Origin: Zavarzinia marina
GTDB lineage: Bacteria > Pseudomonadota > Alphaproteobacteria > Zavarziniales > Zavarziniaceae
Direction: 5' to 3'
Assembly: GCF_021568905.1 (NCBI RefSeq)
Contig: NZ_JAKGSB010000003.1
Coordinates: forward strand, 372,001 to 436,000
DNA: 64,000 nucleotides
How positions within the stretch are numbered: position 1 is the first letter of the stretch; every line of letters begins with the position of its first letter. This document shows positions 9,570-24,573 of this stretch, piece by piece. Below the pieces are notes generated by a model that was given only the letters and a program-made list of their open reading frames with translations, ran no database searches and was not told where the DNA came from. Made by a program: the position numbers and the translations under genes.

Positions 9570-10013
9570 TCAGGCGATGTCGAAATTGTCGCCCGCGCCC
9601 TGGCCCTCGTTCGAGACCTTGGACAGCGCGTTCATCATGACGGCGCGCAATTCGCTGACGGAATTGGGATTCTCGATGATGCCGATGACCCGGCGGCGCG
9701 ACGAGCGCGACGCGGTGTTCTGGCCCTGCTCGGTCAACATGATCACCGGCGCCCGCGAACCGAGGCGGACCGCCCCGTCGATCACGACCGAGGACGACCA
9801 CCCCTTCAATTCGGCGTCGACGACGATCAGTTCCGGCCAGGTGCTCATGATGTGGCGCAGCCCCGAATAGCCGTCGTGGGCGACGGTCACGGCGAAGCCC
9901 CAGGACGCCAGATGCTCCCGGAGATGGCGGCTGCGCTCGATATTGCTGTCGACCAGCAAGACCTGCGGTCCTGTTTGCGGGCTGCTCGTCAAGGCGTGTC
10001 CCATCATAGCCAC
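9570..10013 (-). CDS. Single-domain response-regulator-like protein with degenerate active site
   Basis: A 147-residue stand-alone receiver domain. The phosphoacceptor Asp is in ELIVVDAELKG and the switch Thr in VIMLTEQG. The N-terminal acidic pair is reduced to one Asp (LLVDSN), and the invariant Lys before Pro is replaced (IIENPNS instead of xxKP). Phosphorylation may therefore be weak or absent, and binding may be phosphate-independent. The start is GTG 10013 with GAGGTG 5 nt upstream; ATGs at 10007 and 10004 are alternatives. It is divergent from the secreted repeat protein and the Cpa/Tad cluster. Confidence 0.75.
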   Translation of the reverse strand: MAMMGHALTSSPQTGPQVLLVDSNIERSRHLREHLASWGFAVTVAHDGYSGLRHIMSTWPELIVVDAELKGWSSSVVIDGAVRLGSRAPVIMLTEQGQNTASRSSRRRVIGIIENPNSVSELRAVMMNALSKVSNEGQGAGDNFDIA

Positions 10014-10622: not shown

Positions 10623-12212
10623 ATGAAGATGAATCCTTCGCCTAAATTGGCTCTCTTCGCGACGACGGCCATGGCCGTACTGTTCGGAACCGCCTTCGCG
10701 ACCGCGCAGGAAAGCTATCCGATCTCCGGCGACCAGTTCGGTTACGGCGAACGCGCCGTCGCCGAAACCAGCTTCAATCTCGAGTTGTTCGGCGGTGGCG
10801 ACGAGAACGGCGGCACCTACGGCGGCGCGCCCACCATCACCATCCCCCTCGGCGACAGCCTGGGGCTGCAGGTGGACGGCGTGGCCGGCTTCGCGGCGGA
10901 CGAGGCGGGCTTTGCCGGCGGCGCGGCCCAACTCTTCTTCCGTGATCCCCAGAGCGGCCTGATCGGCGTCGCCGGCGGCGGCTACTACGTCGAGGGCACG
11001 GCGCAATACGCGGTCGCGGGCATCGCCGAATATTATCTCGACTCGGTCACCCTCGAGGCTCTCGTGGGCTATCAGACGGGCGACGTGATGGACGGCGCCT
11101 ATGGCCGCGCCGGCATCTCGATCTACGCCAACCCGAACCTGCGCATCGGCGGCGGTGTCTCCTATTCCGAGGAGACCGAGATCGGCGGCGACATCCAGCT
11201 CGAGGCCCTGCTCACCGACATTCCGGGCATGGCCCTGTTCGCCACCGGCGTCTTCGACCAGCAGGGCTCCATGGGTTACGGCGGCGTGAAGTTCTACTTC
11301 AACAGCGCCACCAACCTGCTCGCGACCGACCGCACCAAGCAGGCGGGCGGCCCGACCCTGATCGACATGCACCGCAACCTGGGACGTCCCAATTTCTTCA
11401 CCTCGGGCGGTGCCGGCTTCGGTCTGCGCCAGATCAGCCTCGTCGGCAGCGCGCTGAACGGCGGTGACCCGTTCGGTGACATCGATCCCGATCCCGAGAC
11501 CCCCGACGGCGACACGGCGAATTGCGGCGACGGCGCCATCTGCGCGGTCCAGGATCTCGTCGACAATCTGACCGAAGGCACCGTGCTCGAACCGCTGAAC
11601 GATCTGATCGTCGGCCTGCTCGACCCGAACGACGGCGCGCTCTCGGCGCTGACCGGCGCGCTCGAGGATCTGACCTCGTCGGACGACGGTGCGCTCGGCG
11701 CGGTCACCGATCTGGTGAACGCCCTGGTCAATACCCAGGACCAGGCGCTGGAGCCCCTGATCTCGGGCCTGAACGACATCCTGGCCGGTCTCACCGGCGG
11801 GCTGACGGGCGGTCTGTCGAGCAATGCGCTCGGCGACTTCATGGCCGCCGACGGCACGACCGACGAAGGCCTGATCGACGTCGTCCAGGATACGGTCGCC
11901 AACCTGCTGGACGGGACGCCGCTCGAGGGCGTCGGCGATCTGGTCGATGGTCTCGTCGACCCGGATACCGGCGCGCTGGCCGCCCTCACCGGGCAGCTGA
12001 ACGAGCTGACGTCCGAGGACGCGGGCGCCCTCGGTCCGGTGACCGGCCTGGTCGACGCGCTGGTCGATCCCGACGTCGGTGCCCTCGACCCGGTGCTCGA
12101 CGGCGTGAACGACCTGCTCGAAGGCCTCCTCGGCGGACTCGCCGGCGGCCTTTCGGGCGACGGCGCCAGCCTGAGCGGCCTGACCGGCCTGCTCGGCGGC
12201 CTCGGTGCCTGA
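10623..12212 (+). CDS. Secreted barrel-like protein with a duplicated 112-residue Leu/Gly/Asp-rich unit
   Basis: 529 residues, family not recognised. A signal peptide (1-27) ends at an AxA site before QESYP. Residues about 30-265 are Gly/aromatic-rich with alternating strands (GLIGVAGGGYYVEGTAQYAV), resembling a small outer-membrane barrel. The C-terminal half carries two copies of a long unit with period 112: the first starts at residue 309 (VQDLVDNLTEGTVLEPL), the second at 421 (VQDTVANLLDGTPLEGV). Both contain DPxxGAL motifs and end in GGL-rich tails. It lies upstream of the Cpa/Tad genes, so it may be exported by or work with that system (inference). Confidence 0.7.
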   Translation: MKMNPSPKLALFATTAMAVLFGTAFATAQESYPISGDQFGYGERAVAETSFNLELFGGGDENGGTYGGAPTITIPLGDSLGLQVDGVAGFAADEAGFAGGAAQLFFRDPQSGLIGVAGGGYYVEGTAQYAVAGIAEYYLDSVTLEALVGYQTGDVMDGAYGRAGISIYANPNLRIGGGVSYSEETEIGGDIQLEALLTDIPGMALFATGVFDQQGSMGYGGVKFYFNSATNLLATDRTKQAGGPTLIDMHRNLGRPNFFTSGGAGFGLRQISLVGSALNGGDPFGDIDPDPETPDGDTANCGDGAICAVQDLVDNLTEGTVLEPLNDLIVGLLDPNDGALSALTGALEDLTSSDDGALGAVTDLVNALVNTQDQALEPLISGLNDILAGLTGGLTGGLSSNALGDFMAADGTTDEGLIDVVQDTVANLLDGTPLEGVGDLVDGLVDPDTGALAALTGQLNELTSEDAGALGPVTGLVDALVDPDVGALDPVLDGVNDLLEGLLGGLAGGLSGDGASLSGLTGLLGGLGA

Positions 12213-12252
12213 TCCGTTTCGGCCTGATCCGTTTCGGCCTGATCCGGCTCCG
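12208..12252. repeat. 15 bp tandem repeat spanning a stop codon
   Basis: Two exact copies and one degenerate copy of CCTGATCCGTTTCGG start at 12208. The first contains the TGA stop (12210-12212) of the repeat-protein gene, and every later copy carries another TGA in the same frame. It looks like local slippage duplication at the 3' end of the gene. Confidence 0.8.
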
Positions 12253-12332
12253 GAGGGGGCGGCCCGTTTGCAGCGCGGCCGCCTCTCCGCTATGGTCCTT
12301 GGCTCCTGCATCCCTTCGGGAACGGAAGCGAC

Positions 12333-12503
12333 ATGAAACCAATCCTTCGCCGGGCGAACCTGCGCAAGATCGTCGCCATGGCGCTGGTCGTGGGCATGGT
12401 CTCCGCGCTCGGCGCCTGCGGTGCCCGGCTCAAGGGCGGCGCCAGTGGCGGTACCGGCCGCGGCAGCTCGGCCGGCGGCGGCATCTCCATCCCCTTCCCC
12501 TGA
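12333..12503 (+). CDS. Small lipoprotein (56 aa)
   Basis: A short gene. Positively charged residues (RRANLRK) precede a hydrophobic stretch (IVAMALVVGMVSAL) and the lipobox LGAC with lipidation Cys at residue 29. The mature part is only about 28 residues, Gly/Ser-rich, ending GGGISIPFP. A GGAAG ribosome site precedes the ATG. It sits between the repeat protein and cpaB on the same strand. The function is unknown; small lipoproteins in such positions sometimes help secretin assembly (inference). Confidence 0.65.
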   Translation: MKPILRRANLRKIVAMALVVGMVSALGACGARLKGGASGGTGRGSSAGGGISIPFP

Positions 12504-12981
12504 GCGGCGCGCTCCCGAACGGTGGTTCCGGGAGGCGGCGCCGGCGGTCCGGACAGGGCGCTCCGGACAGGGCGTTCCGGACAGGGCGTTCCGGGTTACG
12601 GAACCGTGACCGATTCGGGCCGCGACCGGTTTCAGCGCGGTCTCGCGGCGCGGGTCTCGCGGGCGTCCCGACCCGCTTGCGGTGGCATGGGCAGGCTTCC
12701 TACCGCAATGCGGTAGGTCGGCCCGAATTCTCCACAAACTTACACCTGTTTGGCCGTTATTCGGTTCTGTCTGCGGCCAGTTCGATTATAGTTACCGCGG
12801 TGGATGTGCGGAAGGCGGGGGATCGCGCACCGGGGGGGAATGCCCATGTGCGTCCAGAACGCAAACGAAGCCTTTACCAAATTGCGCCAGATTGGCGTGG
12901 TGTTAACGGTTGAGTCGGTGGCCGGTCCTCGGTCGCGGGTGAGGCCTGGTCTTTGGACAACCTTGTCAGGGGCGCGGTCCG
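12504..12981. other. Intergenic region before cpaB
   Basis: About 480 bp with no convincing gene. It holds a 14 bp tandem repeat at 12549-12590 and a more A/T-rich stretch near 12720-12920 that probably contains the cpaB operon promoter. I searched it for a small Flp pilin (the GATAIEYGLI-type signature) and found none. A possible 49-codon frame from the ATG at 12846 overlaps cpaB and looks non-coding. Confidence 0.5.
12549..12590. repeat. Three tandem 14 bp repeats
   Basis: Three consecutive units, CCGGACAGGGCGCT then CCGGACAGGGCGTT twice, followed by a partial fourth (CCGGG). They lie between the small lipoprotein gene and cpaB. The direct 14 bp period is not an obvious operator and may be slippage-prone DNA. 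Confidence 0.85.
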
Positions 12982-13869
12982 ATGGGGCGATCTAAGTTTC
13001 GGTTGATCTTGGGGGTGGTGCTCGTGGCGATTGCCGTGGGCCTCATCGTCTACGGTATAAACTCCATGCGGCGGCCACCGCCGCCACCGCCGGCCAGCGA
13101 CGGCCGGCCCGTCGCGGCGGCCCCGCGCGAGGATCTGGTGCCCGTCGTCGTCGCGCTGAAGAACATCGGCCGCGGTGCCAAGATCACGGCCGAACAGGTC
13201 ACCACCCTTCGCGTCCAGGGGCCGGCGCCCGTCGGCTCGCTGTCGGAGCCGAAGCTGGCGGTCGACGCGATCGCGCTGACGGCGCTGCCGGCCGGCCAGA
13301 TCCTCCTCCAGAGCACGATCCTCGCCCCCGGCGACGATGCCAAGCCCGGGCTTTCGGTCCTGGTGCCGGAAGGCATGCGGGCGGTGGCGATCCGTGTGAA
13401 CGACGAGGTCGCGGTCGGCAACTTCCTGCGTGCCGACGACATCGTCGACATCCAGCTCGTGCTCGCCAACAACGCCCTCGGCCCGCCCGAGGAGGGCGGC
13501 AACCCGGAACGCCGCGAAAGCCGCGTGGTGCTCCAGGCGCTGAAGGTTCTCTCGGTCGGCGAGGCACTGACCATCGAGAACGATCAGCAGGCCGTGCGCA
13601 TGCAGAACATCACGGTGGCCGTCACCCCGGAACAGGCGCTGGTGCTCGCCGTCGCCAAGCAGTCGGGCAGTTTCTACCTGGCGCTGCGCAATCCGGCCGA
13701 CGAGGAGAAGGACGAGGTCAAGCCGGTTCGCCTGGAAGACCTGCTGGGCGCCGCGCGCCAGCAGCCGGTCTCCGACAGCGGCGAAGCCCTGCCGGCGCCG
13801 GCCGTGGTCGCGCCCCGTCAGGTGGAAGTCATCCTTGGGACCAACACGGGTAAGCAGGCGGTGCCATGA
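12982..13869 (+). CDS. cpaB: Flp pilus assembly protein CpaB (RcpC-type)
   Basis: 295 residues. An N-terminal membrane anchor (LILGVVLVAIAVGLIVYGI, about 8-26) is followed by a Pro-rich linker and an SAF-like domain (LVPVVVALKNIGRGAKITAE, from about 52). A second beta-rich domain contains VPEGMRAVAIRVNDEVAVGN. CpaB is a periplasmic partner of the secretin in Tad secretion systems. It is the first gene of the machinery operon, and its stop overlaps the cpaC start (ATGA at 13866). Confidence 0.92.
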   Translation: MGRSKFRLILGVVLVAIAVGLIVYGINSMRRPPPPPPASDGRPVAAAPREDLVPVVVALKNIGRGAKITAEQVTTLRVQGPAPVGSLSEPKLAVDAIALTALPAGQILLQSTILAPGDDAKPGLSVLVPEGMRAVAIRVNDEVAVGNFLRADDIVDIQLVLANNALGPPEEGGNPERRESRVVLQALKVLSVGEALTIENDQQAVRMQNITVAVTPEQALVLAVAKQSGSFYLALRNPADEEKDEVKPVRLEDLLGAARQQPVSDSGEALPAPAVVAPRQVEVILGTNTGKQAVP

Positions 13870-15308
13870 GTGAGATGAAGATGCTTCGGGTTCCCGAGAA
13901 TCCGGTGGCGCCGCGAGGCCTTGCCGCGATGTCCGCAACGAATCCCCCGTCCGGTCTTCGGCGCCTCGCGCTGTCGGCCGTCGCCGCCACCGCTCTCGCC
14001 CTGGTGGCGCCCTGTGTCGACGGCATCGGCGTCCCTGAGGCCCGGGCGGCGGACTACGTCAACCGGCCGACCCTGGTGATCCAGCCCGGCGTGCAGACGC
14101 CGCTGAGCCTCGGCACCCCGATCGAGCGGGTGGCGATCGGCGATCCGGCCACGGTGACCGGCCGCGTGGTCGGGCCGCAGGACATCCTGCTGCTCGGCCT
14201 GAAGCCGGGCCGCACCAATCTGATCGTCTGGGAAGTGGGCGGCGAGACCGCCTATGTCTACCCGGTGGTGGTGCCGCTGAGCGTGGGCGACCTCGCGCGC
14301 GACCTGCGCGAGGATCCCGAGCTGGGCACCGTGCGGGTCGATACGGCGGGCGGCACGGTCGCGCTCAAGGGTTCGGTCTCGTCGAACGAGGCCCATGCCC
14401 GGGCGCTCCGCCTCGCCGCGCGCTATTTCCCGGACGGTGTGACCGACCAGATCCAGGTCATGCAGCAGCAGATGGTCAGCGTGGAGATCAAGTTCGCCGC
14501 GCTTTCGACCACAACGCTGAAGCGCCTCGGCTTCGATTTCCGCTCGGGCTCTTCCAACAGCTTCGAATTCGCGGTGGCGTCGCCGAGCGGCTCTATCACC
14601 GGCGATCTCAGCGGCGTCTCGCCGGTGGCGGACGCCCTGAACGTGCTGCTGCGCCTGCCGGGGTCCGACCTCTCGGCCGTGCTCGGCGTGCTCTCGGGCG
14701 CCAAGCTCGCGCAGATCCTGGCCGAGCCGACGCTGCTGGTCCGCTCCGGCGAGACCGCGGAATTCATCGTCGGCGGCGAAGTGCCGATCCCGGTGCCGCA
14801 GGACAATTCCGACACGATCACCGTCGACTACAAGGAATTCGGCATCCGCCTCAAGGTCTCGGCCACGGTGCTCAGTTCCAGCCGCATCCTGCTGAACCTG
14901 GCGCCCGAGGTTTCCGAACTCGACTACGGCAACGGCGTGACCATCCAGGGCACGCAGGTTCCGGGCCTCACCCGGCGCGGCGCGTCCTCGACCCTCGAAC
15001 TCGGCGACGGCCAGAGCTTCGTGCTCGCCGGCCTCATGTCGTCGACCTCGGCGGATGCGGACGACGCCATTCCGATCCTCGGCGACCTGCCGGTCATCGG
15101 CGCCTTCTTCCGGCGCCAGCAGACCACGCGCGAGCGTCAGGAACTGATCATCGTGGCGACGCCGCGGCTGGTCTCGCCCATCGATCCGCGCAGCCTGCCG
15201 CCCATGCCCGGCACCGACCTGCAGAACTATGATCCCTCACTCGGCGACATGCTGATGGGCCGCAACCGCCTGCGCGATGTCCTGCCGCAATACGGGCTGA
15301 TGCCATGA
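13866..15308 (+). CDS. cpaC: Secretin CpaC (RcpA-type outer-membrane channel)
   Basis: 480 residues. After a signal-like segment (about 31-57, ending ARAAD) comes the pilus-assembly N-domain (RPTLVIQPGVQTPLSLGTPI), a BON-like middle part (GTVALKGSVSSNEAHARALR), and the secretin domain (about 225-440) with the hallmark FIVGGEVPIPVPQ and a C-terminal LGDLPVIGAFFRR. It would form the multimeric outer-membrane pore. The start overlaps cpaB and the stop overlaps cpaE, both as ATGA. The N-terminus could begin at a later Met (residue 5 or 22). Confidence 0.93.
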   Translation: MSEMKMLRVPENPVAPRGLAAMSATNPPSGLRRLALSAVAATALALVAPCVDGIGVPEARAADYVNRPTLVIQPGVQTPLSLGTPIERVAIGDPATVTGRVVGPQDILLLGLKPGRTNLIVWEVGGETAYVYPVVVPLSVGDLARDLREDPELGTVRVDTAGGTVALKGSVSSNEAHARALRLAARYFPDGVTDQIQVMQQQMVSVEIKFAALSTTTLKRLGFDFRSGSSNSFEFAVASPSGSITGDLSGVSPVADALNVLLRLPGSDLSAVLGVLSGAKLAQILAEPTLLVRSGETAEFIVGGEVPIPVPQDNSDTITVDYKEFGIRLKVSATVLSSSRILLNLAPEVSELDYGNGVTIQGTQVPGLTRRGASSTLELGDGQSFVLAGLMSSTSADADDAIPILGDLPVIGAFFRRQQTTRERQELIIVATPRLVSPIDPRSLPPMPGTDLQNYDPSLGDMLMGRNRLRDVLPQYGLMP

Positions 15309-16576
15309 CTTCGGAACGTCGCGCCATTCTCGTCGTCTCGAGCGACGAAGACTTCGCCGAACGTGTCACCTCGGCACTGTTCTCCCGCTGCAGCGTCGTG
15401 CGCGGCCTGCCGCAGCTCGAAACCCTGCGCGGCCTGATCGAATCGACGGGCGTCGAGGCGATCATCGTCGATCTCGACGACGTCGCCTGGGACGGCCGCA
15501 ACATCACCGAGCTGATCGTCAGCCTGAAGGCGGAACAGCCGACGATCCCGCTCGTGGTCGCCAGCTACAACATCAGCGCCAATGCGCTGATCCCCGCCAT
15601 GCGGGCCGGCGCCAACGACGTCATCGACAAGGATTTCGCCTCCGACGACCTGATCGCCCAGATGGATTGGCTGCTGCAGTCGCGGCCGGCGAAGCGCGGC
15701 GGCCATTCCGCCCGCATCGTCGCCGTGATGGGCCCGAAGCCCGGCGTCGGCTCGACCTCGATCGCGGTCGCCATGGCCGCCGAACTGGCGCGCCGCGCGG
15801 GGCCCAACGAGCGCGTGCTGCTGCTCGATTTCGGCTTTCCGCCGTCCGAGTCGGTGGACCTTCTGGGGATCAAGGCATCCTATTTCATGACCGATGCCCT
15901 GGGTGACATCGGGCGTCTCGATTCGACCCTGATCGAAGGCGCCTTCGCCCAGACCAAGGCGCCGCGCCTGTTCGTCCTGCCGCTCGCGGTCGATGACGAG
16001 AACGCCCAGATCGCGGGCGAGGGGGATCTGTCCCAGCTCGTCGACGTGCTGCGCTCCTATTTCACGGCGATCGTGATCGATGTGAACCGGCCGCTGGCGC
16101 CGCGCGTGGCGGACCGCATCTTCGTCGATGCCAATGCCGCGATCCTCGTCGTCGACCAGTCGATGACCTCGATCCACGGCGCCTCCATGGTGCTCGACCG
16201 CATGCGCCGCTCGATCAACAAGGATCCGGATTTCACCCTGGTGGTGTCGCGCCATGTCGCGCGGATGCCGCCGGCGCCGGAGGAGATCGCGACGGCGCTC
16301 AGGGCCAAGGGGCGGCCCTTCGTCGTGCCCGAGGACCGTCAGTTCATGGACGGCCAGCGCAACCTCGGCACCATGCTGGTGGCGGACGGCAGTTCGGCCG
16401 TCTCGAAGGCCGTGCGCACGGTGGTCGATGCCGTCGTGGCGAGCCAGATGCCGGCATCGGGGGGCAAGGCCCCGGCCGCGCCGGCGGCGCCCTCCCAGGT
16501 CGCGGCGACCCAGTCCCGCATCGCGGCGGGAGGCATTCTCTCGCGGTTCGGCATCGGCCGTTCCGGTTCCCGTTGA
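15305..16576 (+). CDS. cpaE: CpaE/TadZ-type localisation ATPase
   Basis: 423 residues. A receiver-like N-terminal domain (about 1-125, beginning RAILVVSSDEDFAERV) lacks a full phosphorylation site. A MinD/ParA-like domain follows with an atypical P-loop, GPKPGVGSTS, in which the catalytic Lys of the usual GKT/S is replaced by Ser, as known for CpaE/TadZ proteins. These proteins place the secretion complex at the cell pole or at foci. The last 45 residues are Ala/Pro-rich. It is coupled to cpaC by ATGA and lies 15 bp before cpaF. Confidence 0.92.
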   Translation: MTSERRAILVVSSDEDFAERVTSALFSRCSVVRGLPQLETLRGLIESTGVEAIIVDLDDVAWDGRNITELIVSLKAEQPTIPLVVASYNISANALIPAMRAGANDVIDKDFASDDLIAQMDWLLQSRPAKRGGHSARIVAVMGPKPGVGSTSIAVAMAAELARRAGPNERVLLLDFGFPPSESVDLLGIKASYFMTDALGDIGRLDSTLIEGAFAQTKAPRLFVLPLAVDDENAQIAGEGDLSQLVDVLRSYFTAIVIDVNRPLAPRVADRIFVDANAAILVVDQSMTSIHGASMVLDRMRRSINKDPDFTLVVSRHVARMPPAPEEIATALRAKGRPFVVPEDRQFMDGQRNLGTMLVADGSSAVSKAVRTVVDAVVASQMPASGGKAPAAPAAPSQVAATQSRIAAGGILSRFGIGRSGSR

Positions 16577-16591
16577 GGTCAGGAGTAGGCG

Positions 16592-17962
16592 ATGCGTGAA
16601 GCAGGCGGTTCCGGCGGCAATGTTCCCCTCGGCGTTCCGGCCTTCCCGACCAATGTGCCGGGCGGGCGCGGCGACGGCGACATCTACACGTCGCCGCTCT
16701 ATCAGGAGCTGAAGTTCCGCGCCCTCACCATCGTCCACGACTATCTCGAGAAGCGCGGCTTCACGCCCGACAAGGCGAACGGCGAAGTGGTGCGCAGCGA
16801 GATCAGCCGCGCCATCTCGGTGGTCGTCGCCGGCGCCGGCGTCGCCCTCAACGCCGCCGAGCGCGAGCGCCTGCTGGACGACGTCTTCTTCGAGATCGTC
16901 GGCCTCGGCCCGCTCGAACCCCTGCTGGCCGACACCACGGTGGACGACATCATCGTCAACGGCCCGAACCGGGTCTATGTCGAGCGCAGCGGCGTCCTGG
17001 AGAAGGTCACCACGCGCTTTCGCGACGACGCCCATCTGATGAACATCATCCAGCGCATCGTCAGCCCCATCGGGCGCCGGGTCGACGAGGCTTCGCCCTT
17101 CGTGGATGCCCGTCTGAAGGACGGCAGCCGCGTGAACATCGTGATCCCGCCGATCGCCCTCGACGGCGCCACGGTCTCGATCCGCAAGTTCAAGCGCATC
17201 CCCCTCAAGATCCACGACCTGATCCGCACCGGCACCATCAGCCAGGAAATGGTCGACTATCTGGCCGCCGCCGTGCGCTCGCGCCTGAACGTCCTGATCT
17301 CGGGCCGGACAGGCTCGGGCAAGACGACGATGCTGAACATCCTGTCGGGCTTCATCTCGGCGACGGAACGCATCGTCACCATCGAGGACGCGGCGGAGCT
17401 GCAGCTTCGCCAGTCCCATGTGGTGCGCCTCGAGACCCGGCCGCCGTCGGCCGACGGCACGCCCGAGATTACGGCGCGCGATCTCGTGAAGAATGCCCTT
17501 CGCATGCGTCCCGACCGCATCATCCTCGGCGAAATCCGCGGCGGCGAGGCGGTCGAAATGGTGCAGGCCATGACCACGGGCCACGACGGCTCGATGGCGA
17601 CGGTCCACGCCAATTCGCCCCAGGACGCCATGAGCCGCCTCGAACTGCTGCTCTCCTTCGGCGGCATGAAGGCGGATGTCGCCACGGTGCGCAAGCAGAT
17701 CACCTCGGCGGTCCAGGTCGTCGTCCAGGTCCAGCGCCTGTCCTCCGGCGCCCGCAAGGTGATCTCCATCGCCGAGGTGGTGGGCATGGAGGGGGAGACC
17801 ATCGTCCAGAACGAACGCTTCCGCTACCGCGAGAATCCGGGCGCGCCGGGCCAGGGCTCCTTCGTCATGGTCACGCGCCATTCCGCGTTCCAGGAACGTC
17901 TGGCCACGGTCGCCGGCACCGGCTTCGGCGGCGGCGTCGGCCGCTTCGACGGGCGGCCCTGA
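16592..17962 (+). CDS. cpaF: Secretion ATPase CpaF/TadA
   Basis: 456 residues. This is the hexameric ATPase that powers Tad assembly at the inner membrane. Walker A is GRTGSGKTT at about 238-246. The Asp and His boxes are intact, and Walker B is in ILGEIRGGEAVEMVQAM, followed by TTGHDGSMATVHANS. An N-terminal helical region (ALTIVHDYLEKRGF) is typical of CpaF. It is the most conserved gene of the cluster and has normal length. Confidence 0.95.
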   Translation: MREAGGSGGNVPLGVPAFPTNVPGGRGDGDIYTSPLYQELKFRALTIVHDYLEKRGFTPDKANGEVVRSEISRAISVVVAGAGVALNAAERERLLDDVFFEIVGLGPLEPLLADTTVDDIIVNGPNRVYVERSGVLEKVTTRFRDDAHLMNIIQRIVSPIGRRVDEASPFVDARLKDGSRVNIVIPPIALDGATVSIRKFKRIPLKIHDLIRTGTISQEMVDYLAAAVRSRLNVLISGRTGSGKTTMLNILSGFISATERIVTIEDAAELQLRQSHVVRLETRPPSADGTPEITARDLVKNALRMRPDRIILGEIRGGEAVEMVQAMTTGHDGSMATVHANSPQDAMSRLELLLSFGGMKADVATVRKQITSAVQVVVQVQRLSSGARKVISIAEVVGMEGETIVQNERFRYRENPGAPGQGSFVMVTRHSAFQERLATVAGTGFGGGVGRFDGRP

Positions 17963-17979
17963 GGCCCGGGAGAGAGATC

Positions 17980-18903
17980 ATGATCCAGATCGGTCTCGCC
18001 ATTCTGATCATCGTCGCGGCGGGTTACCTGGTCGACGCCTATCTCCACGACAGGAACGTCGACAAGCGTTACCGCGCCCGTCTCGCAAGCCTCAGCCGCT
18101 CGGTCGGCGGCGGCTTCGAGGGCGACGAGGAGATGATGGAGACGGAACGCCTGATGGCGCGCCTGATGATGTCGTCCTCCGGCATCACCCGGCGTCTGAT
18201 GCAGGCCGACTGGAAGGTGACGCCGGAACGTTTCGTCGCCTTCATCGCGGGGCTCTTCGTCGTCGCCGCGGTGGCCATCTGGTTCCTCGGCCTGCTCGGC
18301 GGCCTGGCGGCCGGCCTCGCCTATGTGGGCCTCGCCTACATGCTGCTGTCGAATGCGGCCGACAAGCAGGTGAACGCCTTCCTCGAGGAATTGCCCAATT
18401 TCCTCGAGCGGCTGCGCCAGCTCGTCTCCACCGGCAACAGCCAGGTTCAGGCCTTCGACAAGGCGCTCGCCTATTCGGGGGACGCGACGCGGTGCTATCT
18501 CGATCCCGTGGCACTGCGCCTCAAGATCGGCGTGCCGCTGCCGGACGCGCTGCGGGTGCAGGCCCAGCGCCTGGGGATCGCGGAACTGGCGATGCTGGCC
18601 ATGATCGTGCGCACCAACCTGCGCTACGGCGGCAATCTCGGCTATATCCTGGAGCATCTGGCCCGGGTGCTGCGCGATCGGACAAGGGTGCGCAGCGAAT
18701 TCAAGTCGCTGTCGTCGGAACTTCGCTCGACCGCCATCGTCATGGTGGCGATCCCGCCCCTGGTCGCGGTCGCCATCATGGTGATGAACCCCTCCTATCT
18801 CGACTATTTCGTCGAGGAAGGGCAGACCGCGCTGTGGCTCGCGATCGGGCTCGAAGTCGTCGGCATTCTCATCATGCGCCGCATGATGAAGGTCGAATAT
18901 TGA
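17980..18903 (+). CDS. tadB: Tad platform protein TadB (T2SS GspF-like)
   Basis: 307 residues with an N-terminal membrane segment (1-18), a central pair of hydrophobic segments (about 87-125) and two C-terminal ones (AIVMVAIPPLVAVAIMVM and the last 20 residues). The cytoplasmic domain has the GspF-type FLEELPNFLERLRQLVSTGN and RYGGNLGYILEHLARVLRDR motifs. TadB and TadC form the inner-membrane platform driven by CpaF. It lies 17 bp after cpaF and 10 bp before tadC. Confidence 0.92.
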   Translation: MIQIGLAILIIVAAGYLVDAYLHDRNVDKRYRARLASLSRSVGGGFEGDEEMMETERLMARLMMSSSGITRRLMQADWKVTPERFVAFIAGLFVVAAVAIWFLGLLGGLAAGLAYVGLAYMLLSNAADKQVNAFLEELPNFLERLRQLVSTGNSQVQAFDKALAYSGDATRCYLDPVALRLKIGVPLPDALRVQAQRLGIAELAMLAMIVRTNLRYGGNLGYILEHLARVLRDRTRVRSEFKSLSSELRSTAIVMVAIPPLVAVAIMVMNPSYLDYFVEEGQTALWLAIGLEVVGILIMRRMMKVEY

Positions 18904-18913
18904 GAGGGGCGCG

Positions 18914-19843
18914 ATGATGTCGGCGATCTTCTTCGTCTCCATAGCCTTCGTGCTCTCCGGGCTGCTGCTCCTCTTCGTCGGCAGCAACGTGGTTCTGGAC
19001 GAGATGCGCGGCATGAGCAACGACCGCCGCCTGCGCGGCCGTCTGGCGGATGTCGGCCGGACCGACGCCATCGTCGAGGAGGATCGCGACGAGGGCGGTT
19101 TCTTCGAGACGATCGGCCGCGCGACCACGAGCAGCGCCAGCACCATCGCCGAATTCGAACAGATCATGCGGTCCGTCGGGCGCTACGACGCGGGCGCGCC
19201 CTATTGGCTGGCGGGCCTGCGGCTGGTCGCGGCGATCGCCCTCGCCCTGATCGGCTTCGGCGTCGGTCTCGGGTTCTGGAGCATGACGACGGCGCTGTTC
19301 CTCTGTCTCACCGGTTTCGCCGTCGGCTATCTGGTGCCGCGCTACTTCCTCTCCAGCATGGCGGCGGCGCGGCGGCGGCGCATCGAGCGCGAACTGCCGT
19401 TCATGATCGACATGCTGCTACTTCTCGTGCGCTCCGGCGCCTCGATCGAACAGGCGTTCCGCCACCTGACCCAGGAAGAGGCGGACGGCCTCGGCACCAT
19501 CAAGGCCACCCTCGACCGGCTCGTGAACGACATCGACCAGGGCAAGGGCTACGAGGTCTCGCTGCAGCGCTGGGGCGCGCGCCTCGCGATCGACGAAGGC
19601 CGCGAATTCTCGGCCCTGCTGATCCAGTCGCTGGCCCATGGCACCGAACTGACCCAGGCCCTGAAGGTGTTTTCCGACACGCTGATCGAACGGCGCATGA
19701 ACAATGCCCGGTCCACCATCGGCAAGCGCATGACGCAGATGACGGTGATCATGATGCTGTTCATGATGCCGCCGCTGCTGATCGTGATCGGCGCGCCGGC
19801 GGTCACCCGTCTGATCGACGGCTTCGCCCGGGTGAACGGATGA
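18914..19843 (+). CDS. tadC: Tad platform protein TadC (T2SS GspF-like)
   Basis: 309 residues. Membrane segments lie at the N-terminus (about 5-26), the centre (LRLVAAIALALIGFGVGLGF and following) and the C-terminus (MTVIMMLFMMPPLLIVIGAP). The cytoplasmic domain has RELPFMIDMLLLLVRSGASI and the GspF-type EFSALLIQSLAHGTELTQAL motif. It is the second platform subunit beside TadB. The start is ATGATG, and its TGA overlaps the tadD start (ATGA at 19840). Confidence 0.92.
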   Translation: MMSAIFFVSIAFVLSGLLLLFVGSNVVLDEMRGMSNDRRLRGRLADVGRTDAIVEEDRDEGGFFETIGRATTSSASTIAEFEQIMRSVGRYDAGAPYWLAGLRLVAAIALALIGFGVGLGFWSMTTALFLCLTGFAVGYLVPRYFLSSMAAARRRRIERELPFMIDMLLLLVRSGASIEQAFRHLTQEEADGLGTIKATLDRLVNDIDQGKGYEVSLQRWGARLAIDEGREFSALLIQSLAHGTELTQALKVFSDTLIERRMNNARSTIGKRMTQMTVIMMLFMMPPLLIVIGAPAVTRLIDGFARVNG

Positions 19844-20523
19844 CCATCCGGCGTTCCTGTTCGGCCGCCTGTCGCGCCCTCGGCATCGTCTTGGCGGCGG
19901 CCGTGCTGACGACCGGTTGCGCCCGCTCGGCGCCGACCCGGTCCGTCGACGGCGTGGCGTCGAACGCGCCGACGCCAGAGGAGGACCAGCTCTATATCGC
20001 GCTGATCCGGGGCATGAACGAACGCGGCCAGTCCCAGGCGGCGCTGGCCTTCCTCGACGATTACCTGGGGCGCCACCCGGGCGATGTCGAAGCCCTGTCC
20101 CTGAAGGGCGAGGCGCTGCTGCGCACCGGCCAGACCGACGAGGCGGACCAGATCTACATCCAGCTCGACCGGCGGCGCATCCAGCCCGTCGCGGCGTTCG
20201 GGCTCGGCCAGGTGCGCGCCAAGGTCGGCGACTGGAAGGGAGCGGTGCCGCAATATGCCCGCGCCGCGAAGGCCGCGCCGACGGATTCGCGCGTCCTGAA
20301 CAATTACGGCTTCGCCCTCATGAAGATCGAGGACTACGCTGAGGCCTATGACGTGCTGGCTCGCGCCAGCCAGTTGAGTCCCGAGAGCACACAGATCAGG
20401 ACCAATTTCGCCATCGCGGCGATGAAGAGCGGCCGCGAGGCCGAAGTGCCCAAGATTCTGGCCCGCATCCCCGAAGAGGAACGCGGCGCCACCCTTTCCT
20501 TCGTTCGGAGTTGGCAGCCATGA
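19840..20523 (+). CDS. tadD: TadD-like TPR lipoprotein
   Basis: 227 residues. The N-terminus is a lipoprotein-type signal ending TTGC with C27 as the probable lipidation site. TPR-like helices follow: QSQAALAFLDDYLGRHPGD, ALSLKGEALLRTGQTDEA and VLNNYGFALMKIEDYAEAYD. TadD proteins are lipoproteins that support secretin or pilus assembly. It is coupled by 4 bp to both tadC and the next gene. A long upstream open frame exists but is out of register with coding signals. Confidence 0.88.
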   Translation: MTIRRSCSAACRALGIVLAAAVLTTGCARSAPTRSVDGVASNAPTPEEDQLYIALIRGMNERGQSQAALAFLDDYLGRHPGDVEALSLKGEALLRTGQTDEADQIYIQLDRRRIQPVAAFGLGQVRAKVGDWKGAVPQYARAAKAAPTDSRVLNNYGFALMKIEDYAEAYDVLARASQLSPESTQIRTNFAIAAMKSGREAEVPKILARIPEEERGATLSFVRSWQP

Positions 20524-20891
20524 CACGATACAATCAGTCGCGCGCCCGGGCCCGGGTTCAGGCCATTACCGTTTCGCCGGCGGCGATCGTCGCCGGTGTC
20601 CTGCTCGCTTCGGCCTTGGCCTTCGCCGCGGCCATGGTCGTCCCGGCGCCGGCGCGCGCCCAGTCCGGCCCGACCAGCCTCAGCACCGGCGGGACGGCGA
20701 CGCCGGTGCTGCCGCCCTTCGCCCGTACGCGCTCGATCATCCAGGCCCAGAACGCCTCGCGCGGGGCGCGCGCCATCAGCGGCGGGCCGGAGCTCGACAA
20801 GATCTATCAGAACTATCTGGATTCGATCGGCAAGGGTGGGGCCGGCGGCGAGGGGGTTTCGTTGAGCGCCGGGCCGGGCAGCCCCGACTGA
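20520..20891 (+). CDS. Unknown exported protein at the end of the Cpa/Tad operon
   Basis: 123 residues. An ATGA overlap with tadD shows it belongs to the operon. The N-terminus has basic residues and a hydrophobic stretch (AIVAGVLLASALAFAAAMVV, about 22-41) ending at a likely cleavage site (ARAQ). The mature region is Ser/Gly/Thr-rich with one recognisable helix (PELDKIYQNYLDSIGKGG). It has no similarity I know to pilins or TadE/F/G. It may be a small secreted or periplasmic accessory. Confidence 0.7.
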   Translation: MTRYNQSRARARVQAITVSPAAIVAGVLLASALAFAAAMVVPAPARAQSGPTSLSTGGTATPVLPPFARTRSIIQAQNASRGARAISGGPELDKIYQNYLDSIGKGGAGGEGVSLSAGPGSPD

Positions 20892-20927: not shown

Positions 20928-21323
20928 TCAGCCGCCGGCCTTCACCAGACTGTCGATCACGCGGCGGCAGATGTCGAAGCTGAGCGGCTTGTTGAGGACG
21001 ATCGGCGCCAGTCCGCGGTGCGACGCGGCCTCGGCCACCATTTCCGGATTGCCGCTCATCAGCACCACCTGCTCGGTGTGGCGCAGCAGGGTCATGATCT
21101 CGGCGGCGCGCACGCCGCCCAGCTGCGGCATGCCGACATCCATCAGGACGACGTCGGGCCGCTGGTCACGGGCGATCTCCACCGCCTCGATCCCATTGGC
21201 GGCCTCGAGCACGCTGTAGCCGACGCGGCCGAACAGTTCCGCCAGTTCGGTGCGCAGATCGAAATCATCGTCCACCACCAGAATGGTCGGCTTCTTGTCC
21301 GTCTTGTTGCTCGCGACATTCAT
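20928..21323 (-). CDS. Single-domain response regulator
   Basis: 131 residues with an intact receiver domain: acidic pocket VVDDD, phosphoacceptor Asp in DVVLMDVGMP, switch Ser in VVLMSGN and Lys in VLNKPLS. No output domain follows, so it acts through protein contacts or as a phosphorelay intermediate. It starts 2 bp after the histidine kinase gene stop and is almost certainly its partner. Confidence 0.9.
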   Translation of the reverse strand: MNVASNKTDKKPTILVVDDDFDLRTELAELFGRVGYSVLEAANGIEAVEIARDQRPDVVLMDVGMPQLGGVRAAEIMTLLRHTEQVVLMSGNPEMVAEAASHRGLAPIVLNKPLSFDICRRVIDSLVKAGG

Positions 21324-21325
21324 CG

Positions 21326-23002
21326 TCAGCTGGCCGCTTCCTCGACATAGGTCGGTATCTCCAGGCGGAAGACAGCGCCTCCCTCCCGGTTGAAGGCGGC
21401 GATGTTGCCGCCCATGTCGGTCATCAGCGTGCGGCAGATGGCGAGTCCCAGTCCGCTGCCGTGTCCCACCTCCTTCAAGGTGAAGAATGCGTCGAAAATA
21501 CGGTTCATGACGTCGGCCGGGATGCCGCCGCCCGTATCCTGGACCTCGACCACCAGGCGGTCGGAGACACCGTCGTCATAGACGGCGACATGGATCACGC
21601 CCTTGGTCGGTTCGCCCCGGCGCTTGCAGTATTCCGTGATCGCGTCGCGCGCGTTCACCACCAGGTTCAGGAACACCTGCTGCAGCGACACCGGATTGGC
21701 CTTCAGCGCCCGGCAATAGGGTGGCGCCTCGCAGATCAGCTCGATGCCGCGGTTGCGCAGCGAACCCTCCGTCAGGTTGCGGATGTTGTCCATGATCTCG
21801 GTGACCGAGACGGGGCGCAGCCCCAGGGTGCGGCGGTCCGGATGGGCGAGGGTGCGGATCGCGCTGATGATCTCGCCGGCGCGCAGCGCCTGATCGTGGA
21901 TGCGGTCCAGCTTGCTGTCGACGATGGCGCGTTCGGCGGCCATGCCGTGATTGCTCTCGCCGACCGCCTCGAGCGCCAGCTTGGCATTCTTCACGGCCAT
22001 GGCGATGACCGACAGCGGCTGGCTGATCTCATGGGCGATAACGGTCATCAGCTCGCCGAGCGTGGCGAGCTTGGCCGTGTTGATCAGCACGTTCTTCTGC
22101 TCGTCGACCTCGAAGGCCTGGGTGGCGATCAGGCTGAGGCGCTGCATCAGGGCCAGTTGCGACGGTTCGAAGAAGCCGGGCCGCGCGTGCAGCGCGACCA
22201 GCATCGCCGCCTCGTTGCCGATGGTGATCGGCGCCACCAGGGCATTGCGGAAGCGTTCGCGCATGATGTCGGGGAAATCGTTCCATTCCCGCACGGTCGC
22301 CAGATCCTCGACCAGCAGCGCCTCGCCCATCAGGGCGGCGTTGATGACGTCGCCCGGCGGCCATTGCAGGCCGGTCAGGCGCGGATCGGTGGCGACCACC
22401 GCCAGCAGTTCGTCGCGGGTGCGCCGGCGCACCACCAGGGCTTCGTCGAAGCGCAGCAGGCGCGAGAACAGATTGAACAGATCGGCGCATTTGTCGGCCA
22501 GCGGGCTCGGCTGGATCAGGGCGCGCAACGAGGCGAGGAGGACGTCCGCCTCCTCGCGCAGGCGCATTTCGCGGTTCCGGTTGGCTTCGGCGCGTTCCAG
22601 CAGTTCGACCAATTCGCCCCGGTGCTGTTCGTCGAAGGGCCGGCCGCTCCAGACCTTGCCGACGCCGACATAGCCGCCGCCGTCCTGCGGCGTGCCGGTC
22701 AGGGTGAAATTGGCGACCGAACCGTCGCGCTGCACGAAGCTGAGGGCGACGTCGCGCATGGGCACCTGTCGGTGCAGGAGATCGCTGAACGCCTCGCCCT
22801 GGGCGGGGTAGAGGGTGCGCTGCGCGAGGCGGTCCAGCCTGGCGCCGCGCAGGAGTTGGATGACGGCGGGATCGCAGGCGACGTCGAGGGGCGATGCATC
22901 CTCGACCCTGAAGTCGGCGCCGGTGCGCCAGGTGAAATCGGCCGCGAGGCTGAGAAGGTCGGGCAGGGGGGCGCGGGCGCCGGCATCGGCGACGTCGACC
23001 AT
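21326..23002 (-). CDS. Soluble hybrid-less sensor histidine kinase (PAS/GAF-like + HisKA + HATPase)
   Basis: 558 residues without membrane helices, so a cytoplasmic sensor. The N-terminus looks PAS-like (about 20-125), and a GAF-like domain covers about 160-300. A coiled helix leads to the phosphoacceptor H324 (VIAHEISQPLS). The ATPase boxes are complete: N-box FLNLVVNARDAI, G1 VEVQDTGGGIP and G2 GHGSGLGLAI. The signal is unknown. It forms an operon with the receiver gene 2 bp downstream. Its leader has two strong hairpins (23022-23069). Confidence 0.9.
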   Translation of the reverse strand: MVDVADAGARAPLPDLLSLAADFTWRTGADFRVEDASPLDVACDPAVIQLLRGARLDRLAQRTLYPAQGEAFSDLLHRQVPMRDVALSFVQRDGSVANFTLTGTPQDGGGYVGVGKVWSGRPFDEQHRGELVELLERAEANRNREMRLREEADVLLASLRALIQPSPLADKCADLFNLFSRLLRFDEALVVRRRTRDELLAVVATDPRLTGLQWPPGDVINAALMGEALLVEDLATVREWNDFPDIMRERFRNALVAPITIGNEAAMLVALHARPGFFEPSQLALMQRLSLIATQAFEVDEQKNVLINTAKLATLGELMTVIAHEISQPLSVIAMAVKNAKLALEAVGESNHGMAAERAIVDSKLDRIHDQALRAGEIISAIRTLAHPDRRTLGLRPVSVTEIMDNIRNLTEGSLRNRGIELICEAPPYCRALKANPVSLQQVFLNLVVNARDAITEYCKRRGEPTKGVIHVAVYDDGVSDRLVVEVQDTGGGIPADVMNRIFDAFFTLKEVGHGSGLGLAICRTLMTDMGGNIAAFNREGGAVFRLEIPTYVEEAAS

Positions 23003-23538
23003 GGTCCTCAGCCTTTCAAGGTCGGGCGTTTCGCGCCCGATGCCTTCGGGACCGGGCGCTTCGCGCCCGACGGTGCCGCACGATAAGCCGGTACTGTTGC
23101 GCGCGCCTTAATCTTCACAACCGCTTCCCTCGCCCCTTGCCCACGAACTTCGAAACGAAGCTCGATCGGCCTTCTGCCAAAGCCCTGCGGGAATCAAATC
23201 CCCGGATTCGCCTCATGCGCGGACTTTTACCCTTATTCGTCCGTCCGGCCGGCGTATCCGACGCAGAGATTAACGCATGTTAAGGAAACTTCGTGAATAC
23301 GGCGTAAATTTCTCCCGCTTTGGCGTCTGCCGAAATTACATTGTTCCGGGGGCGCGACTATCGCGAATCATTCGGTTTTGGATCAGTTTATGATTTGTTT
23401 ATGATGTTTGGGTATAGTCCCAACCAGCATGAAGCCGGTTGAGCCGGCTCGGTCGGCGCGGATGGAATCACTTCCATTTCGTGTCTGAAAAGGCATAAAG
23501 GGTTCATGTCCGCCCAAATGGGGGAGGTGGAGTTTCAG
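23003..23538. other. Divergent promoter region between two-component genes
   Basis: About 535 bp. Near the kinase it has two GC hairpins. Further right it is A/T-richer. TTAACGCATGTTAA (23270-23283) is an inverted repeat that resembles a CtrA site (TTAA-N7-TTAA) but has a 6 bp spacer. TTTATGAT occurs twice, at 23387 and 23398, 11 bp apart, about 140 bp before the rightward gene. These are plausible regulator sites; no gene is seen. Confidence 0.5.
23022..23069 (-). promoter_or_regulatory. Two tandem hairpins in the kinase mRNA leader
   Basis: TCGGGCG/CGCCCGA (23022-23040) and CGGGCG/CGCCCG (23053-23069) each close a 5 nt loop. They lie 20-67 bp upstream of the histidine kinase ATG, in what would be its 5' leader, and share the same stem sequence. 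They could be a leader structure or a protein-binding array. Confidence 0.5.
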
Positions 23539-24573
23539 ATGACGTCTGGTCCCAATCGTTCGAACGCGATCTCGACACCTGTCTATGTGATCGACGACGA
23601 TGCCTCGATCGTTGAGGAGGTGGGCGATTTCCTGAAGCTCAAGGGGTTCGTGGTCAAGGCCTTCTCCGTGCCGGCCGAGGCGCTGGAGCAGATGCTGGCC
23701 GAATCGGAGCCCTTCCTCCTCGTCACCGACATGCAGATGCCGGGCCTCAGCGGTCTCGACCTCGTGCGCGAGTTGCGCCATTTCGGCGGCAGCCCCCGGG
23801 TATTCGAAACCATCCTGTTTTCCGCCTTCGCCGATCTCGACCGGGCCATCAACGCCCTGAAGCTCGGTGTGCTCGACTTCCTGGTGAAGCCGGTCGATCT
23901 CGATCAACTCGTCGCCGCGATCCATCGCGCCGCCGAGGCGCTGGATCAGCGCCGGGACGCCAAGGGCAACGACCGCGACCTCTCGACCCAGCTCGCCGAG
24001 ACCCTGGCCAAGGCGAAGGAACTGACCTCGACGATAGAGAATGCCGCCGTGCGGCTCTCGCGCGAATCGATCACGCCGGCGACGTCGCCGCTCGCCCGGC
24101 CCGCGGCCGCGCCGCCGCCCAGCGCCGGCCCGGCGCAGCCGGTCCACCGTCTGGTGGTCAATCCGCCCCGTACCCTGCCCGGCCAGGCCCCGGAAGAGGG
24201 GGAGATGCTTCACCGCATCAAGGCGTTGCAGGCCGCGCGTCGCTTCCGCGACAAGCTGCTGCCGTCCTGTGTCGACGGTGACGCCAATTGGGAAATCCTG
24301 CTCTATCTGATCGAGCAGTCGCTGCTGCATCGGGTGGTGTCCGTCACCAGCGCCTGTCACGCGACGACGCTGCCGTCGACCACCGCCATGCGCAAGATCG
24401 ACGAACTGGTCTCGACCGGCTGGCTGCAGAAGCGTCCCGATCCCTCGGACCGCCGCCGCACCCTGATCGCGCCGACCGATCTGTGCCGCGAGCGCATGCG
24501 CAACTACCTGCTGGGCCTGCCGGTGAACATCGGCACCCCGGGCTTCGAATCCTCGGTTCCGGCCCTGGCCTGA
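23539..24573 (+). CDS. Response regulator with C-terminal MarR-like winged helix
   Basis: 344 residues from ATG 23539, which has GGAG 6 nt upstream; an in-frame ATG at 23506 would add 11 residues. The receiver domain (about 15-135) is intact: VIDDDAS, LLVTDMQMP, ILFSAF and FLVKPVD. A helical linker and a Pro-rich stretch (about 185-225) follow. The C-terminal part (about 240-330) has VTSACHATTLPSTTAMRKID, DELVSTGWLQKRPDPSDRRR and LIAPTDLCRERM, the helix-turn-helix plus wing pattern of MarR proteins. Receiver-MarR fusions are uncommon. It is divergent from the kinase operon. Confidence 0.85.
   Translation: MTSGPNRSNAISTPVYVIDDDASIVEEVGDFLKLKGFVVKAFSVPAEALEQMLAESEPFLLVTDMQMPGLSGLDLVRELRHFGGSPRVFETILFSAFADLDRAINALKLGVLDFLVKPVDLDQLVAAIHRAAEALDQRRDAKGNDRDLSTQLAETLAKAKELTSTIENAAVRLSRESITPATSPLARPAAAPPPSAGPAQPVHRLVVNPPRTLPGQAPEEGEMLHRIKALQAARRFRDKLLPSCVDGDANWEILLYLIEQSLLHRVVSVTSACHATTLPSTTAMRKIDELVSTGWLQKRPDPSDRRRTLIAPTDLCRERMRNYLLGLPVNIGTPGFESSVPALA

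Follow-up and report, generated by a model that had tools for sequence, protein, structure and literature searches.

The window analysed here, a stretch of 64,000 nucleotides from Zavarzinia marina, carries a Cpa/Tad operon on its forward strand. This includes cpaB/rcpC (12982–13869; Pfam RcpC, 1.2e-24; NCBIfam TIGR03177, 1.8e-47), the secretin gene cpaC/rcpA (13866–15308; Pfam secretin, 1.3e-41), cpaE/tadZ (15305–16576), in whose product Pfam recognizes a receiver or receiver-like domain and the MinD-like ATPase domain AAA_31, the motor ATPase gene cpaF/tadA (16592–17962; Pfam T2SSE, 2.9e-65), two platform genes, tadB/cpaG (17980–18903) and tadC/cpaH (18914–19843), both matching Pfam T2SSF, and tadD/cpaO (19840–20523), encoding a TPR protein with Pfam TPR matches. 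A first-pass annotation, made from the sequence, had described these genes as complete and coupled, and this is borne out by their tight spacing over 12982–20523 and by the Pfam support for each of them. The motor, the TadB and TadC platform, the CpaC secretin, CpaB, CpaE/TadZ and TadD by which a Tad system is recognized are therefore found together. As had also been claimed, there is no Flp, A24 peptidase or TadE-G among the ORFs of the cluster. CpaD/RcpB, whose absence had been overlooked, was found neither in the cluster nor in the whole genome, nor in any of six Zavarzinia genomes (0/6). It is listed as an accessory component of the Tad model in the excerpted part of PMC6668835, and since it was not found in the genome the outer-membrane part of the machine may differ.

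Several smaller or regulatory genes surround the operon. Upstream, on the forward strand, are the gene for a repeat protein (10623–12212), treated below, and a 56-residue lipoprotein-like ORF (12333–12503) with an LGAC lipobox identified by eye. A small ORF for an exported protein (20511–20891, forward strand) overlaps and is coupled to tadD; its true start is perhaps at 20517 and its C-terminal core is conserved in five Zavarzinia genomes. Both small ORFs had been noted previously, and relatives occur at two of four (lipoprotein) and four of four (exported protein) other Zavarzinia Tad loci. A receiver-like protein (9570–10013, reverse strand) is encoded divergently from the repeat protein, and this adjacency is conserved. 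Downstream lie a receiver-domain protein (20928–21323) and a GAF histidine kinase (21326–23002), both on the reverse strand, and a response regulator with a C-terminal winged-helix-like domain (23506–24573, forward strand). The first two have homologues within the compact Tad locus of a distant genome, G034, and the third has one after tadD in that locus.

Control signals were sparse. Between 9900 and 13100, a promoter scan revealed no sigma-70-like site and terminator-like sites were no commoner than in shuffled sequences. Joint control of CtrA type was rejected for the genes considered below: TTAA-N7-TTAA, which we take to be the full CtrA-type site, occurs neither in the window nor in the 21 other loci scanned. 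CtrA half-sites number four in all loci scanned (in L003, L065, L066 and L072).

Tad components elsewhere in the genome

A whole-genome search for flp, cpaA and tadE found all of them, all outside the cluster. Two Flp_Fap genes lie at C2 (1.4e-15 and 1.3e-5, the second being below the cut-off of the profile search), and both products carry, as read by eye, a G-x4-E-Y motif, given as the Flp pilin motif in the excerpted part of PMC10934763. TadE and three TadG-like proteins are encoded at C12 and C13, among which no separate TadF could be told apart. There are two A24 prepilin peptidase genes. One lies near the gspE-type ATPase gene, at a distance of approximately 9 kb, and the other stands alone (C11:316365–317009); the product of the latter, a CpaA-like peptidase, is a candidate for processing the Flps. 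The genome includes one CpaF and one GspE-type secretion ATPase and no more and, since its CpaF is single, the C2 Flps have no other Tad motor. Encoding at one locus, which is usual for Tad systems without defining them, is thus not found in this genome. The first-pass annotation had left two options, pilins from another locus or export of a different substrate: the former is upheld by the two Flps, the peptidase, TadE/TadG and the single CpaF, while the latter finds no support, as discussed below.

All six Zavarzinia genomes encode Flp, TadE and a single CpaF, and flp lies at least ~17 kb from CpaF in the five with informative contigs. The neighbours of flp are shared by the five loci fetched (5/5), as are those of TadE/G in four of four. 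The Tad components exist and are unlinked, and the scattered arrangement is conserved in Zavarzinia.

Occurrence of the split arrangement and related systems

Tad systems encoded at several loci are called "very rare" in the excerpted text of a published survey. According to PMC6668835, the genes of a Tad system nearly always sit at one locus, a feature linked to frequent horizontal transfer, and an excerpt of PMC8460266 refers to Tad splitting as "a unique situation". We examined 154 genomes of the class, in 76 of which CpaF was found; the linkage count was restricted to the 29 of these with no more than 10 contigs (contig counts rounded and tallied by hand), the 47 more fragmented CpaF genomes, three Zavarzinia among them, being set aside. 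Among the matches listed, 22 of these 29 near-complete alphaproteobacterial genomes have flp no more than ~7.2 kb away from a CpaF, and no Flp above the cut-off appears in two (G028 and G115). In five (G018, G026, G088, G110 and G159), for which every Flp match was taken into account, flp is unlinked from CpaF. These cases add three further families, so that scattering exclusive to Zavarzinia was rejected and "a unique situation", at least as worded in the excerpt of PMC8460266, looks too strong.

With the alphaproteobacterial Tad/Flp (type IVc) pili (Caulobacter cpa, Sinorhizobium flp-1) the system described here shares CpaB, C, E and F, TadB, C and D, a Flp with G-x4-E-Y, an A24 peptidase and TadE/TadG. 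It differs in the location of its genes at several places, in that the genome search recovered no CpaD, and in the adjoining barrel-repeat protein. The Kil system of Myxococcus xanthus also has a Tad-like core in separate clusters; as described in the excerpted part of PMC8460266, however, it comprises two clusters and acts in contact killing, whereas in the present genome flp, cpaA and TadE/G all have separate locations and killing is not indicated.

Another counterpart is the second Tad locus of G034 (L077), whose order is TadG-TadE-flp-kinase-regulator-cpaB-C-E-F-tadB-C-D-regulator, with all parts homologous to those of Zavarzinia. CpaD was likewise not found in this locus; unlike the Zavarzinia system, it is single and compact and is without a repeat protein. 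In a CpaF tree, the Zavarziniaceae and the second G034 copy split from 21 others with a support of 100/100, a grouping that carries a long-branch warning for the G034 sequence. With a scattered full set and a distant compact relative to compare, the idea that dispersal halts horizontal transfer can be tested directly.

Copies and predicted architecture of the repeat protein

The repeat protein (529 residues) includes a signal peptide, a 12-stranded outer-membrane barrel predicted with confidence by a structure model (residues 50–227; 10770–11303), a conserved linker (residues 246–278; 11358–11456), some of whose residues are invariant across seven paralogues, and a passenger of predicted helical repeats. 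A duplicated 112-residue unit had been recognized previously and sequence self-comparison agrees: unit 1 (11523–11858) and unit 2 (11859–12188) are 52% identical at an offset of 112 over 110 residues, and the DNA copies are 336 nt apart. The model of the repeat protein has a pTM of 0.81 and a mean pLDDT of 82.6; in the passenger model pLDDT is below 50.

The intimin barrel (Z 17.6, with 202 residues aligned at rmsd 2.8, model residues 23..246) and invasin (Z 16.6, with 198 at rmsd 3.1, model residues 23..262) were the sole listed matches whose aligned range, comparing ranges alone, extends well beyond the barrel into the linker. The porins KdgM (Z 19.3, rmsd 1.8, 168 aligned) and NanC and the classical autotransporter barrels fit the barrel as well or better, and self-export is therefore not proven by the fold alone. 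Many other barrels appear in the Foldseek and VIA listings, and a barrel match by itself was not counted as kinship. In a distant relative, L041, barrel and linker are present and the passenger is absent, so that the linker may be a mere plug.

The predicted order, with a 12-stranded barrel at the N-terminus and a passenger after it, is that of inverse autotransporters (type Ve), and the post-barrel linker and C-terminal position of the passenger would also be shared with intimin and invasin. In contrast to these, whose passengers are Ig-like domains, the repeat protein has a passenger of predicted helical 112-residue repeats and lacks a Pfam sequence match. No Pfam family of inverse-autotransporter barrels was matched at E ≤ 1 in 13 members of the repeat-protein family; the sole matches of the barrel at this threshold were to two unrelated families, each in one of the 13. 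With the full-length protein only sub-threshold Pfam matches were obtained, to a baculovirus envelope domain and a DUF, both taken as chance, and a PDB sequence search with the barrel returned no solved relative and one chance match (E 0.95).

There are seven copies in the genome, six besides that in the window, most beside unrelated genes and away from Tad genes. One lies within a transposon-like island. Comparison with other Tad loci, which the first-pass annotation had proposed, indicates that the position beside cpaB is kept across the family (6/6 resolvable Zavarziniaceae genomes, a second genus included). Another copy is 4.8–7.0 kb from flp in three of four resolvable genomes. Orthologues at the same locus have 529, 662 and 810 residues and vary in repeat number.

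Proposed roles of the operon and the repeat protein

The most likely explanation, judged from gene content, is an ordinary Tad pilus machine with genes scattered over the chromosome. More fully, we favour, at a probability of roughly 0.7, a scattered, CpaD-less Tad (type IVc) pilus together with a linked surface protein resembling inverse autotransporters, as read from genes and models. The operon in the window would supply the motor, secretin and platform, the remaining genes being dispersed in Zavarziniaceae. The C2 Flps would be processed by the lone CpaA-like peptidase and polymerised by CpaF, TadB and TadC, with TadE/TadG contributed from C12 and C13 and exit through the CpaC secretin; the histidine kinase and regulators at 20928–24573 may provide control. 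The repeat protein would not be cargo: its predicted barrel would be placed in the outer membrane and, in the manner of inverse autotransporters, would let the protein's C-terminal helical repeats pass to the outside by way of the barrel pore. The result would be a linked protein of the cell surface or an adhesin, which might act with the pilus.

A pilin-free machine for export of some non-pilin substrate, whether the repeat protein or a different one, might be suggested by a cluster without a pilin gene and by the constant position of the repeat protein beside cpaB. This is very improbable: Flp, peptidase and TadE/TadG occur in the same genome with a single CpaF, and flp and TadE/G are inside the compact G034 relative. 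The repeat protein is no stand-in for a pilin and was rejected as a Tad substrate because of its signal peptide, its own predicted barrel and its six other genomic copies. A Tad cluster judged pilin-less from one locus is thus an unsafe conclusion.

The repeat protein might be a bystander, a multicopy outer-membrane protein upstream of cpaB by chance, and its seven copies with mostly unrelated neighbours, including that on the island, together with the 478 bp separating the lipoprotein ORF from cpaB, make this a serious possibility, if a somewhat less probable one than a real association; its adjacency to cpaB in both genera, kept while flp and TadE are elsewhere, and the further copy near flp argue against it. 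We consider it rather doubtful that the protein is OmpA-like, with periplasmic repeats perhaps contacting the secretin or cell wall. An even strand number puts the C-terminus of a barrel protein in the periplasm by default, and the passenger-less L041 and the good fit of porins point the same way; varying repeat number, as seen among the same-locus orthologues, is nevertheless more typical of surface proteins, and the intimin and invasin alignments extend into the linker. As a predicted outer-membrane barrel protein with variable repeats, it may aid surface attachment. An elaboration that we regard as unlikely is a two-part attachment organelle in Zavarziniaceae, in which the scattered CpaD-less Tad system would be joined by multicopy, self-exporting barrels with variable repeats, one of them fixed next to the motor operon and a second mostly close to the pilins; at the outer membrane, the barrel might make up for the missing CpaD. 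The Pfam searches yielded no model for the barrel-repeat family, which represents an unannotated surface-protein candidate.

A probable Tad pilus system with scattered genes

The cluster in the window is most likely part of a Tad pilus system whose genes are scattered here. Seven tightly spaced genes in the order cpaB-cpaC-cpaE-cpaF-tadB-tadC-tadD (12982-20523), adjacent members of which overlap or stand apart by at most 17 bp, all give clear family matches. A small exported ORF (20511-20891) overlaps tadD and a 56-aa lipoprotein-like ORF lies 478 bp upstream of cpaB. Family searches for Flp, A24 peptidase, TadE and CpaD return no match within the cluster, and the first-pass annotation was therefore correct in describing a cpa/tad cluster without pilin, peptidase or TadE. 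One of its two suggestions, pilin-less secretion, is not upheld, since these parts are present elsewhere in the genome (3.95 Mb, 17 contigs). Contig C2 carries two adjacent Flp genes, and genes resembling TadE/TadG are located on C12 and C13. A lone A24 peptidase gene (214 aa) on C11, approximately 65 kb before the cluster, adjoins a gene identified by eye as cobS-like, and a second lies about 9 kb from a GspE-type ATPase gene. As the genome encodes a single CpaF, no second Tad motor is available to the Flp genes. CpaD, which exceeds the family cut-off in 19 of the 60 genomes searched, was found in none of the six Zavarzinia genomes.

All six of these genomes carry one CpaF and two Flp matches. 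CpaF and flp are 1.8 Mb apart on a single contig in G004, and contig extents and positions place them at least ~113 kb (G000), ~340 kb (G001), ~70 kb (G003) and ~17 kb (G005) apart; the G002 assembly is too fragmented to provide a distance. The flp neighbourhood (by eye, aminotransferase-, homoserine-dehydrogenase-, glpX- and FAD-protein-like genes) is the same in all five fetched loci, and that of TadE/TadG is unchanged in four of four. Together, these separations and constant neighbours show that the layout is inherited and is not an accident of assembly.

A compact counterpart and the frequency of scattering

The complete genome of a distant relative, G034, includes two Tad loci, both with flp. 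One (L078) is canonical. The other (L077) has the order TadG-TadE-flp-histidine kinase-receiver-cpaB-cpaC-cpaE-cpaF-tadB-tadC-tadD-regulator and is thus compact, whereas the Zavarzinia parts are scattered. Like the Zavarzinia system it has no detectable CpaD, the sole G034 match in the CpaD search being in the canonical locus. Zavarzinia CpaC and CpaB match L077 (45% and 43%) better than the canonical locus (31% and 30%). In a tree with 21 other CpaFs, the L077 copy groups with those of the Zavarziniaceae (100/100), with a program warning of a long branch. The flank of the Tad operon in the window (20928-24573) encodes a histidine kinase with a GAF domain, a receiver protein and a regulator whose end is winged-helix-like, and their homologues lie inside L077. 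The content of this locus, its similarity and the CpaF tree imply that flp, TadE, TadG and the kinase and regulators belong with the Tad machine of the window. They suggest that the Zavarziniaceae dispersed an originally compact locus, a direction which is unproven.

A published survey (Denise et al.) describes Tad systems encoded at more than one locus as very rare, and splitting of Tad is called a unique situation in the Kil paper (PMC8460266). We sampled 154 alphaproteobacterial genomes, of which 76 include CpaF, and counted the 29 of these with at most 10 contigs. Among the matches listed, flp occurs within ~7.2 kb of CpaF in 22 and no Flp exceeds the cut-off in two; flp is unlinked to CpaF in the remaining five. 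These counts make scattering an uncommon but recurrent arrangement, seen in a minimum of three other families (f13, f21 and f83).

Two further features concern individual genomes. In addition to its Zavarzinia-type locus, the sister genus G006 has a further Tad locus (contig C3, L063) of canonical appearance, with matches to Flp, TadE and CpaD. In G004, the reading frames of cpaF, tadB and an aldehyde dehydrogenase gene are broken (L065 and L069), which suggests an assembly with many errors.

The repeat protein upstream of cpaB

The 529-aa repeat protein (10623-12212), a predicted outer-membrane protein, is associated with Tad but separate from it. An N-terminal signal peptide (by eye) is followed by a confidently predicted barrel of 12 consecutive strands (mean pLDDT 82.6, pTM 0.81), a linker with residues invariant in seven paralogues and two 112-residue repeats, which share 52% identity and have no confident fold in the model. 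The length at this locus differs among orthologues (529, 662 and 810 aa), and the named closest relatives are Zavarzinia records. The solved structure that best fits the barrel is the KdgM porin (Z 19.3, rmsd 1.8, 168 aligned). Among the rows listed, only the alignments with intimin (Z 17.6, rmsd 2.8, 202 aligned, model residues 23-246) and invasin (Z 16.6, rmsd 3.1, 198 aligned, 23-262) extend well beyond the barrel into the linker. Sequence searches detected no family. Given these fits, the protein may function in the manner of an inverse autotransporter; we do not class it as one. An alphaproteobacterial MAG encodes a 295-aa protein (L041:9998-10885) composed of barrel and linker without passenger.

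The genome contains seven copies, and each of the six Zavarzinia genomes four to eight; matches of any kind occur in eight of 60 relatives, the eighth (G057) being weak. In six of six genomes whose contigs cover both genes, among them G006 of the sister genus, a copy immediately precedes cpaB; one contig, L030, stops within the repeat-protein gene. In G000, G003 and G004, though not in G001, flp has another copy at a distance of 4.8 to 7.0 kb. Other copies adjoin unrelated genes. The linkage with Tad is therefore conserved, but the family as a whole is not specific to Tad.

One paralogue lies in a 13-kb stretch, together with IS-like ORFs and a Tn3-like transposase gene (by eye), that is 99.9% identical between the Z. 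marina genome (L027:4904-17907; C9:675904-688907) and a contig assigned to a Ferrovibrio MAG (L040:1880-14882), where the upstream DNA differs. This reflects either transfer of the repeat-protein gene from one bacterium to another by a transposon or misbinning of the MAG contig.
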